NCBI GenBank assembly: GCA_902615845.1
Contig: CACMQS010000002.1
Span: forward strand, 1-64,000
Direction: 5' to 3'
DNA length: 64,000 bases
From: an uncultured Alphaproteobacteria bacterium
GTDB taxonomy: Bacteria; Pseudomonadota; Alphaproteobacteria; HIMB59; GCA-002718135
Positions 21,267-25,944 of the stretch are shown here, one piece after another. The notes below the pieces were generated by a model. That model worked only from the letters and a program-made list of their open reading frames with translations, had not been told where the DNA came from and did no database searches. Each line of letters opens with the position of its first letter. Position 1 is the stretch's first letter. The position numbers and the translations under genes were made by a program.

Positions 21267-23033
21267 TTAGCGTGAAGTGAGTTTTAATTCAATCCTTCTA
21301 TTCTGTTGTAGATCACTCTCAGTTTCTCCATTACTGATAGGATAAAACTCTCCATATCCTGCAGATGCTAATCTATTTGGTGGAAAACCAAGATCAAGAA
21401 GAAGTTTTAAAACTGTATTAGCTCTAGCTGAAGATAATTCCCAGTTAGAAGGATATCTAATTGTTTGTATGGGTTTTTTATCAGTGTGTCCTTCTACCAT
21501 TATAATCCAGTCAATATCTGAAGGAATATCATTAGTAGTCTCTTTTAAAGTAAGGCCAATTTCACTTAACTTTTCTTTGCCAGATAGTTGTAAATCTGCT
21601 GAAGCAGAATCAAATAATAGCTCTGATTCAAAAATAAATCTATCTCCTACAATTTTAATATCTTTTCTATCACCTAAAATAGATTGTAATTTTCCAAAAA
21701 ACTCAGATCTATATTTTTGGAGCTCAAATACTTTCGATGTAAGGGCTTTGTTTAACTTTTCACCTAGCACCTCTATTTCTAAATCTTTAATCAAAGCCTG
21801 GCTTTCACTAGCTTCTAAAGCATCATTAAGTAAAGCTATTTCTTTTTGCAATTTATCAATTTGATTAGAAAGAATTTCTACCTGTTCCAATGTTTTTGAA
21901 GCTTGTATTTCCATATTTTTAATATCTTCAAGTGATGTTTCTTTTTGTGTTTGATTTTCTTGTTCTAATGAAACAATTTGACTTTGAAGTAACTCAAGTT
22001 TTTCTAGTTGTTGTTTTTGTTTATCTTCTGACAAAGAAAGAACATTATTTAGTTCAGATATTTTTCCTCTCAAATTAAAAATTGTGCTATCTTTCTGAAT
22101 TAAATCTTTATTTAATCTTGCTAATTCTTCATTTTTAAACCTAATTGCATCAAGTTGTTCATTAAGTGATGCATCTTTTAAACCTAGACTATCATTAATC
22201 TCTAAAAGATCATTCATAAGTTCTTGATATTGAGATATTTGACTTTGTAGTTCTTCATCTCTCAATGATAGTTCAATGTTAGTCTTTTCTAATTCATCAT
22301 TTAAACTTAGAAGCTTTTCATTTTTATTTTTAATTGCAAGTAATTGTTCTTCAATTCCTCCCTCCTCTAAACCCAGACTTTCGTTAATGGCCATTAAATT
22401 TTCATTCTTCTCATTTAATTCTGCTATTGTAGATTTGAGAGATTTTTCACTTTCAAGTAGTTTAAAATTAGCATTATCTAATTCTTGATTAAGTATTTTG
22501 AGTTGATCAATTCTTGTTGCAAGTGCTTTATTAATTCGTTCTCCTAGCCCCTCGGTTTCAAGTAAAGTAATTTCTTGTCCTTCATAAGTTTCTAATGCAT
22601 TTGCAACTATTCTCAATTCTTTTAAAAGACTACTAATTTGCTCGGATAAAGCTATTATATTTTGTTCCTGAACAAATATTTCTGATCGTTTTTTTGCAAC
22701 ATCGGTTTGTAATTGCTCACTTAATAATTGCTCACTTTGTAAATTTAATTCTGTATCTTCAAGTTTTTTCTCAGTTTCAGAAAGAGTTGAAAGAGCTTCT
22801 TCTTTATCTTTAGTTTCAATAACAAGTATTTTAGATAATTCATTTATTTGTGTTCTTAAATCTTGAAGCGCCTTATCTCGACCAGATATAGCATCACTCA
22901 GATATATTTGTGAAACAGTAAAAACCATTAGCACAAATATGATTACTATTAAAAGAGTAGCTAGAACATCGACAAAACCGGGCCAAATATTTGTTGTATC
23001 AGCAAGTCTATTTCTTAAAGACCTAGTAGACAT
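21267..23033 (-). CDS. OmpA/MotB-like peptidoglycan-binding protein with long coiled coil
   Basis: 588 residues. A short cytoplasmic N-terminus (WPGFVDVLATLL) runs into one membrane helix (about 20-48) of the MotB/ExbD type, with Asp22 positioned like the proton-carrying Asp of stator units. Then comes a periplasmic heptad-rich coiled coil of roughly 380 residues (about 50-430). An OmpA-type peptidoglycan-binding domain follows (about 455-588: IMVEGHTDKKPIQ, SSARANTVLKLLLDLG, NRRIELKL). It starts 2 bases after its MotA/ExbB-like partner. The pair is a non-flagellar stator-like complex found in many alphaproteobacteria; role unproven. Confidence 0.85.
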   Translation of the reverse strand: MSTRSLRNRLADTTNIWPGFVDVLATLLIVIIFVLMVFTVSQIYLSDAISGRDKALQDLRTQINELSKILVIETKDKEEALSTLSETEKKLEDTELNLQSEQLLSEQLQTDVAKKRSEIFVQEQNIIALSEQISSLLKELRIVANALETYEGQEITLLETEGLGERINKALATRIDQLKILNQELDNANFKLLESEKSLKSTIAELNEKNENLMAINESLGLEEGGIEEQLLAIKNKNEKLLSLNDELEKTNIELSLRDEELQSQISQYQELMNDLLEINDSLGLKDASLNEQLDAIRFKNEELARLNKDLIQKDSTIFNLRGKISELNNVLSLSEDKQKQQLEKLELLQSQIVSLEQENQTQKETSLEDIKNMEIQASKTLEQVEILSNQIDKLQKEIALLNDALEASESQALIKDLEIEVLGEKLNKALTSKVFELQKYRSEFFGKLQSILGDRKDIKIVGDRFIFESELLFDSASADLQLSGKEKLSEIGLTLKETTNDIPSDIDWIIMVEGHTDKKPIQTIRYPSNWELSSARANTVLKLLLDLGFPPNRLASAGYGEFYPISNGETESDLQQNRRIELKLTSR

Positions 23034-23035
23034 TA

Positions 23036-24061
23036 TTATTTTTTAATTTTCTTTAGTTCTTTTTCAATTTTCTGAAAATATTCTTTAACTTTTTTTGCTT
23101 CTAATATTCCATTTTTGCTTAAAGCTTCAGTAAGGTTCATTAGTGTAGATTGTGTGTTTAATTGTGAAGATAAGAAATTTGATAATTGCTTATCAAGATT
23201 TGAAGAGTTGGAATTGATTTTGTTAAGTATTTCATTAAACTTTTCTAAATTGTTTGAAATTTTAGTTTGATTGTCAGATGATTTTTTAAACGCATTTAGG
23301 AGTTTTTCTAAGTTGTCATAGATTTTTTGAATTGCTTCACCTGTAGGCTTATCTTCTACTTTAGAAAAATCTGGAGAAGAATTGCTATTAAGGATTTTTT
23401 CAAAGTATTGACTAAATTTATTTTGAGCTTGTCCAAGATTTAAATCAAGTAATCCTAATATTAAAGAGCCAGCTAAACCTAATAAAGAACTGCTAAATGC
23501 AATACTCATTCCTTCAAGTGGAGCATTTAATCCATCTTTAAGAGAATTAAAAAAGCCTGCAACATTTGTATCATCTATACCTAGGCCGCTGATAACATTG
23601 CCAACAGATCCAATGGTTTTTAGAAGTCCCCAGAAAGTTCCAAGGAGTCCTAAAAAGACTAGCAAGCCTACCAGGTAACGAGAAGTTTCTCTTATGCTAA
23701 TCAAAGTCATATCAGAATTCTCTATCAATCTATTTATTGATGAACTTTTAAAAACAAATTTTCCGTCAAGATTTTTTAATTCAAGAGAAATATTTTTGTC
23801 TTGCCCTCTTAAATTAGAGAATGCTTCTATAGAATTTGTAATATTAAAGTTCGAGAAAGATATATATTTATAATTTAAGTTAATGAGATGAAAAAAATTA
23901 AATACAATTCCAGTTAACAGGGCTAATAAAATTATAATGTTAATAAAAATATTTGATAAAAAAGCATTTTGTAGAACTGGGTATAATAAGACAACAATAA
24001 CAAAGACAGCGACTAAGAAAATTGATGCTCTAATTATATAATTATTTAGGGATAGCGCCAT
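23036..24061 (-). CDS. MotA/TolQ/ExbB-type proton channel family protein
   Basis: 341 residues. Two membrane helices at the N-terminus (about 8-30 and 36-58), a cytoplasmic loop, then the conserved ExbB/TolQ core: YLVGLLVFLGLLGTFWGLLKTIGSV and GMSIAFSSSLLGLAGSLILGLLDL (about 128-215). The glycine-rich and Thr-containing helices line the proton path in this family. A C-terminal coiled-coil tail (about 235-341) points into the cytoplasm. Encoded directly upstream of the MotB-like partner with a 2-base gap, so both should be made in ratio. No flagellar or Ton genes are nearby. Confidence 0.85.
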   Translation of the reverse strand: MALSLNNYIIRASIFLVAVFVIVVLLYPVLQNAFLSNIFINIIILLALLTGIVFNFFHLINLNYKYISFSNFNITNSIEAFSNLRGQDKNISLELKNLDGKFVFKSSSINRLIENSDMTLISIRETSRYLVGLLVFLGLLGTFWGLLKTIGSVGNVISGLGIDDTNVAGFFNSLKDGLNAPLEGMSIAFSSSLLGLAGSLILGLLDLNLGQAQNKFSQYFEKILNSNSSPDFSKVEDKPTGEAIQKIYDNLEKLLNAFKKSSDNQTKISNNLEKFNEILNKINSNSSNLDKQLSNFLSSQLNTQSTLMNLTEALSKNGILEAKKVKEYFQKIEKELKKIKK

Positions 24062-25296: not shown

Positions 25297-25382
25297 GTTT
25301 TTTTATTTTAAGAAAAACGTCTCTCATGTCAATAACTCTAAATTATTAACATTTGATGAGAAAATAATTTGTAGAGATCGAC

Positions 25383-25607
25383 TTAAGCAGCAATGCGACG
25401 ATTTTTTTGAGCTTCTTTTTCTTTTTTAAGCTCTTTTTCGTCAATATATGCAACATCACAGTGACTCTGGCAATAAGGCTTCCCAGCAACGGTATCAGCT
25501 TCACAAAAATGAAAATCTTTCTCTTGTGGATCTCCAATTGGCCATTGGCAACTTGAGAAACTGTGCATCACACTGTTTTGTTTAAAATAGTTTTTTAATA
25601 TAGACAT
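25383..25607 (-). CDS. Stand-alone GcrA C-terminal (sigma70-interacting) domain protein
   Basis: 74 residues from ATG 25607; an in-frame start at 25664 adds 19 residues with no similarity. The centre reads CQWPIGDPQEKDFHFC, then KPYCQSHCDVAYI, which is the C-terminal cysteine/histidine-rich domain of the alphaproteobacterial cell-cycle regulator GcrA. In Caulobacter this part binds sigma70. The N-terminal helix-turn-helix of GcrA is absent: only about 18 residues precede the domain, and no frame upstream encodes it. A basic, Lys/Arg-rich tail follows. Either a cut-down regulator or a partner for another DNA-binding protein. Confidence 0.8.
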   Translation of the reverse strand: MSILKNYFKQNSVMHSFSSCQWPIGDPQEKDFHFCEADTVAGKPYCQSHCDVAYIDEKELKKEKEAQKNRRIAA

Positions 25608-25761
25608 AATAATTTTATTAATTTTGAGGTAGTTTATATTTATGAAAAAACCAGTATTCAACATTAAATATAAAAAAGTTGTTAATTATCAATATGTTAG
25701 TATCTTAATCTTTTTGACCTACTATATGTTGATACATAATTTATAAGAAAAACGAATCGGT

Positions 25762-25944
25762 TTATCGAAAAAATAAAATTATAAACAATAGTGCCAAAAA
25801 AAACAGATAGGATTTGATTATAAAACTTTTAGTTAATTTGGATTTAGGCGGTTTTCTAAGATATATAAAGAAAACAATAGTACTCCAAAATAATAAAAGT
25901 ATTACCCAGCCTGTTAAAAATGCATAATAAAAATCGACAGACAT
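25762..25944 (-). CDS. Small two-helix membrane protein
   Basis: 60 residues with two hydrophobic segments (about 7-28 and 42-59) joined by a basic loop rich in Lys and Pro, the pattern of a small inner-membrane hairpin. I do not recognise a family. It starts 20 bases after the msrA stop on the same strand, so it may share the msrA transcript. Its real nature rests on good membrane topology and the lack of a better frame. Confidence 0.5.
   Translation of the reverse strand: MSVDFYYAFLTGWVILLLFWSTIVFFIYLRKPPKSKLTKSFIIKSYLFFLALLFIILFFR

Follow-up and report, generated by a model that had tools for sequence, protein, structure and literature searches.

A stand-alone GcrA sigma-interacting domain encoded alongside full-length gcrA in a family of uncultured marine Alphaproteobacteria, and a putative operator common to the two genes

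Among sigma cofactors steered by DNA methylation, GcrA is the textbook case. In Caulobacter, the extended motif for activation by GcrA is given as YGAKTCG in PMC7987155, which cites Haakonsen 2015 for it, and direct GcrA targets have been defined with a window of -40 to +40 (PMC7987155). Caulobacter also has a gcrA paralogue, GcrB (CCNA_01269), which is reported to be 44% identical to GcrA in a whole-sequence comparison and partly substitutes for it on ectopic expression (PMC3885167); since it can partly replace GcrA, a DNA-reading form is implied, and GcrB is the closest known paralogue to the protein described here. Crl makes no contact with DNA, unlike GcrA, RbpA and GrgA, which do (PMC6917491). 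As for a sigma70-interacting domain (SID) of GcrA that stands alone, no description was found in the literature searched, and with most subscription papers outside the scope of that search, absence is not proven.

Such a gene lies in the window, by which we mean the whole stretch of 64,000 nucleotides that was analysed:

25383-25607, minus strand: short gcrA gene, with a match to PF07750, a fold match to 5yix_B and an omega of 0.04, kept in relatives

Its product of 74 aa, MSILKNYFKQNSVMHSFSSCQWPIGDPQEKDFHFCEADTVAGKPYCQSHCDVAYIDEKELKKEKEAQKNRRIAA, consists of a conserved 18-residue N-terminal extension, the SID and a charged C-terminal helix. In a Pfam-A search, it matched a single family, GcrA (PF07750), over profile positions 107-152 of 155 (E 6.5e-13; score 49.8 bits, cut-off 26.9), and positions 1-106, the N-terminal helix-turn-helix (HTH) part, were unmatched. 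The NCBIfam model sig70cofacGcrA was matched over positions 115-164 of 173 with 44.9 bits, for which the equivalog cut-off of 280 is uninformative, as the family's true full-length GcrA scores just 92.2. The PDB sequence search returned the Caulobacter GcrA SID 5yix_B (E 4.1e-8) and also full GcrA, 7ye1_G. An AlphaFold2 model built from a 41-row alignment reached a pLDDT of about 90 across residues 21-50, and in Foldseek it superimposed on 5yix_B with an rmsd of 0.7 A over 37 columns (46% identity, probability 1.00), the sole credible matches being 5yix_B, 7ye2_G and 7ye1_G. Wherever the alignment of short, full-length and viral rows has an invariant SID residue, the short protein retains it (C20, P23, C35, P44, Y45, C46 and H49).

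The start of the gene matters, because the HTH would have to be encoded upstream of it. In the window's genome, an earlier in-frame ATG gives a 93-aa reading; this start is not conserved, and the 74-aa start is the sole one conserved among relatives. Upstream of M1, the frame is shut within 0 or 1 codon in 28 loci, with at most 32 open codons in every locus, which leaves no room for an in-frame HTH. The sequence-only reading, which had described a 74-residue GcrA SID with no HTH upstream, is thus borne out, and it is confirmed that the short protein is a stand-alone GcrA SID without HTH and a paralogue of GcrA.

The GcrA matches in 100 genomes of the family fall into two classes, a full-length one (about 158 aa, profile 1-146) and a short one (open frame of about 75-100 aa, profile about 104-154). 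In the genus sample, which comprised 92 genomes that are 58-96% complete and was counted from per-genome tables, the short gene is present in 71; both genes occur in 63, the short gene only in 8 (the window's genome among them), full-length gcrA only in 18 and neither in 3. When only genus genomes at least 90% complete are taken, 6 of 6 have both. Beyond the genus, both genes are found in five further genomes (G001, G003, G005, G007, G009), which represent three genera of the same family, and full-length gcrA alone was detected in G002, G004 and G011; relatives do have the short form, then, a point which the sequence-only reading had left to be checked. The order's sister family has full-length gcrA only, and a class-wide scan of 385 genomes gave no further full-cover short form among the matches listed.

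These counts bear directly on the suggestion that the short protein takes the place of GcrA in a simplified, methylation-free cell-cycle circuit, a possibility raised by the sequence-only reading. In its favour, full-length gcrA was not found in the window's assembly. This assembly is, however, 82.7% complete in 34 contigs, and in relatives gcrA adjoins pgk, with ftsY, dapF, ffh and rpsP nearby. A DNA search with the 15-kb gcrA region of a relative (G006) against the window's genome returned nothing of at least 50 bits; at the short-gene locus, the two genomes are 96.8% identical over 6.3 kb. A free-living bacterium cannot do without ffh, ftsY and rpsP. Since the entire 15-kb region is absent together with these genes, the missing gcrA is a gap in an incomplete assembly, and loss of gcrA in this species was rejected. 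A full-length CcrM is encoded in the window's genome (356 aa; 6pbd_A, E 1.9e-126; NF050803 over 348 residues), so that of the two genes whose presence had been in question one was found directly and the absence of the other is attributed to the gap. With ccrM present and both gcrA genes in the majority of genus genomes, we regard the replacement as very improbable, and the idea of a simplified circuit was not supported. In the window, GANTC is under-represented (108 observed against 172 expected from base composition), as expected if the site is methylated and serves as a signal. Sigma70 is encoded as well; over region 2.1-2.4 it hardly differs from Caulobacter RpoD in 7ye1, which means that the GcrA docking site is there.

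The short protein covers just the last third of the family model, and this could also be taken for a decayed gcrA fragment or a frameshift artefact. The probability of this is close to nil: over 1829 pairs from 79 distinct short-gene coding sequences, the median dN was 0.022, dS 0.87 and omega about 0.04, none of the 79 is disrupted and the start is identical in all of them, while the gene also has its own predicted promoter and the same neighbourhood across genera. The short gene is under strong purifying selection, and a pseudogene or frameshift was refuted on this ground and on that of conservation. Full-length GcrA does exist in relatives, as the sequence-only reading had foreseen for the case of decay, yet the short copy is no decayed fragment; nor is there a frameshift, and with the frame shut close to M1 in many relatives, no HTH lies hidden upstream.

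In 24 of 24 representative loci from four genera, the gene order is speB-ahpC-nudix-msrA-tm60-short-CMAS-tolQ-like-ompA-like; in a few of them, nudix and tm60 were not detected. With msrA/tm60 and CMAS as its neighbours, while full-length gcrA adjoins pgk, the short gene is not at an orthologous gcrA position. A tree of the SID (48 columns) gave no resolution on whether the short form descends from the family's own gcrA. Two neighbouring features were recorded on the way:

25762-25944, minus strand: predicted membrane protein of 60 aa that separates msrA from short gcrA, its position conserved but its sequence poorly so, with no Pfam family above cut-off
21267-24061, minus strand: 341-aa membrane protein without Pfam match, paired with a 588-aa coiled-coil protein that has an OmpA domain at its C-terminus; the pair is MotA/MotB- or TolQ/OmpA-like and is retained in every relative examined

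When 29 divergent regions from upstream of the short gene are aligned, four conserved blocks stand out from otherwise diverged sequence; the tallies below refer to 79 distinct upstream regions, and the promoter of the next gene is added:

25633-25661, minus strand: predicted sigma70 core promoter TTGAAT-N17-TATAAA of the short gene, in 77 of 79 upstream regions
25681-25702, minus strand: element A, TACTAACATATTGATAATTAAC, which resembles the reverse complement of an element upstream of full-length gcrA
25719-25731, no strand assigned: putative operator dyad, CTACTATATGTTG / CAACATATAGTAG, common to the full-length gcrA promoter
25753-25759, minus strand: GANTC site CGATTCG, in all 79 distinct upstream regions
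25305-25332, minus strand: promoter-like TTGACA-N16-TAAAAT of the downstream CMAS-family gene, apart from that of the short gene

The consensus promoter scan omits TTGAAT-N17-TATAAA, as its -10 does not end in T. A terminator-like hairpin follows the short gene, before CMAS, in several relatives; this hairpin and the separate TTGACA promoter of CMAS make it most likely that the short gene is transcribed as a unit of its own. For its leader, no convincing Rfam match to a structured RNA was obtained, and a 53-nt upstream stretch folded no better than shuffles.

The occurrence of CGATTCG in all 79 upstream regions should be seen against a chance of about 0.30 per region for any GANTC, and against the relatedness of the regions by descent. 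The site fits YGAKTCG as that motif is quoted for Caulobacter, and its conservation is contrary to the expectation that the short form is freed from methylation control. It lies 27-28 or 37-39 bp from the dyad across relatives and 97-98 or 107-109 bp from the predicted -35 (77 in one locus); the two spacings differ by about 10-11 bp, roughly one helical turn, which is suggestive of a constraint to the same face of the DNA. On the other hand, CGATTCG is farther out than the window used for direct targets in Caulobacter, which counts against the model proposed below.

In the same family, the region upstream of full-length gcrA contains the dyad CTACTATATGTAG and a companion, ATATTTAGTATA, whose reverse complement contains TACTAAATAT and resembles element A. 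Both genes would thereby have a two-element operator made of CTACTATATGTAG plus TACTAAnATAT. On the strand that has the dyad first, the companion follows it at a distance of 29 bp in 47 of 48 short-gene modules, and for gcrA the distance is 31 bp in almost every module; this implies that the operator copies are oppositely oriented relative to gcrA and the short gene. The exact pattern CTACTANATRTWG has 2 matches in the 1.6 Mb of G006, one upstream of each gene, and a single match in the window's genome, at 25719-25731. Across 16 genomes there are 36 matches, of which 28 immediately precede gcrA or the short gene; four of the remaining 8 fall inside mutM. The reversed control pattern likewise gave 36 matches in the same genomes, so the operator signal is one of placement and not of total count. 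A 'third' operator site, seen in four genomes, was rejected, since it lies in the mutM coding sequence and reflects coding conservation. In the sister family, the dyad is over the gcrA promoter in 11 of 11 genomes, although each genome has one to four matches to the pattern at other places as well. As this family already has the dyad on its gcrA, we take it for a probable old gcrA operator, common to the short gene and nearly exclusive to the two genes. In the promoters of the sister family (L234-L239), the dyad CTACTATATATAG runs straight into the TATAAA box in all 11 genomes, and this position at the -10 is suggestive of an operator that blocks or recruits there.

What the short protein may do follows, in our opinion, from its SID and its lack of a DNA reader, from which we infer sigma binding at the GcrA site and competition. 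The short protein would dock on region 2 of the housekeeping sigma at the site of full-length GcrA, and, having no reader of methylated GANTC, it and GcrA would exclude each other on the holoenzyme. By means of the common operator and the GANTC site of the short gene, the cell could set the ratio of GcrA to short protein, and this ratio would determine the share of RNA polymerase in the GcrA/CcrM-dependent mode. We give an even chance to this core, that is, docking on sigma70 region 2, mutual exclusion with GcrA and a ratio that tunes GcrA/CcrM-dependent transcription. The fuller version, a DNA-blind GcrA competitor that is co-regulated with GcrA via one dedicated operator and whose gene is also wired to CcrM methylation, falls somewhat short of even. 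The core reading draws on the sequence and fold of the SID with its retained invariant residues, the near-identical sigma70 region 2, the low omega and fixed gene order, the presence of gcrA and ccrM, the two-element operator and the CGATTCG site. It also draws on the class-wide WPIGDP motif, which is retained in the short protein; in the full-length GcrA of the family it has drifted to WPxGHPDE, with H at position 26 in 8 of 8 rows compared (an example is the full-length gcrA at L083 7328-7801, with others of the family); for this reason the short form might, speculatively, bind sigma more strongly than full-length GcrA does. Regarding the net effect on GcrA, we tentatively lean towards dampening; a positive role would also be compatible with the conserved charged C-terminal helix.

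On account of this helix, the main rival is a general methylation-independent sigma70 cofactor similar to Crl or RbpA, whose docking on region 2 would aid holoenzyme assembly or open-complex formation; as part of this reading, the conserved charged C-terminal helix would make sequence-unspecific contacts with RNA polymerase or DNA. The SID fold would serve such a cofactor equally, sigma region 2 is a known hub of factors of this kind (PMC7403470, PMC6917491), and the C-terminal tail (...ELKKEKEAQKNRRIAA in the alignment) is almost invariant, which competition alone would not need. An operator nearly exclusive with gcrA and a GANTC site point, however, to the GcrA circuit and not to housekeeping, and a gene that the order's sister family does without is not generally required. 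We consider this reading unlikely, while keeping it ahead of the other rivals.

The N- and C-terminal extensions are conserved in the short protein and missing from other GcrA proteins, and such unusual conservation suggests an extra contact beyond what simple competition needs. It would also suit a SID that has left sigma70 for another partner, be it another sigma, beta-prime or an unrelated protein, and the window's genome does encode two further sigma-like proteins. We find this improbable, as the canonical SID core is better kept in the short protein than in the family's own full-length GcrA.

A natural SID-only protein parts sigma docking from DNA reading, and with it one can test directly whether sigma70 is activated, inhibited or simply occupied by the SID on its own. 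If the competition model is true, the ratio of GcrA to its stand-alone sigma-docking half would be a tunable sigma70 switch in a streamlined, uncultured ocean lineage. In this lineage, the GcrA circuit would have gained a regulator instead of being stripped down, and the common operator offers a handle for finding the factor that controls gcrA.

When the known systems are compared, phage GcrAs share the SID with the short protein. The ten on viral contigs (L168-L177) have 118-224 aa with N-terminal halves that look HTH-like by eye, none being stand-alone, and the gcrA gene of Brevundimonas phage Bajun, with 708 bp, is not stand-alone either; a phage origin of the short form was rejected, because phage GcrAs have the N-terminal half. 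The viral proteins, which look two-domain, possibly serve phage takeover of host sigma70. Crl (a sigma-S cofactor) and RbpA (an actinobacterial sigma cofactor) are small and act through sigma region 2, and the likeness is in the presumed mode of action only: Pfam, PDB sequence and PDB fold searches with the short protein found no homology to either. GcrB resembles the short gene in being a second gcrA-family gene alongside gcrA, and differs in that its implied form reads DNA while the short protein has no DNA reader. The closest comparison remains GcrA of Caulobacter crescentus (PF07750; SID 5YIX; transcription complexes 7YE1 and 7YE2), with which the short protein has the SID in common and for whose sigma70 region 2 a near-identical partner is encoded in the window's genome; unlike it, the short protein lacks the N-terminal DNA-binding domain and the long linker, has its own conserved extensions at both termini, and is encoded besides a full-length gcrA.
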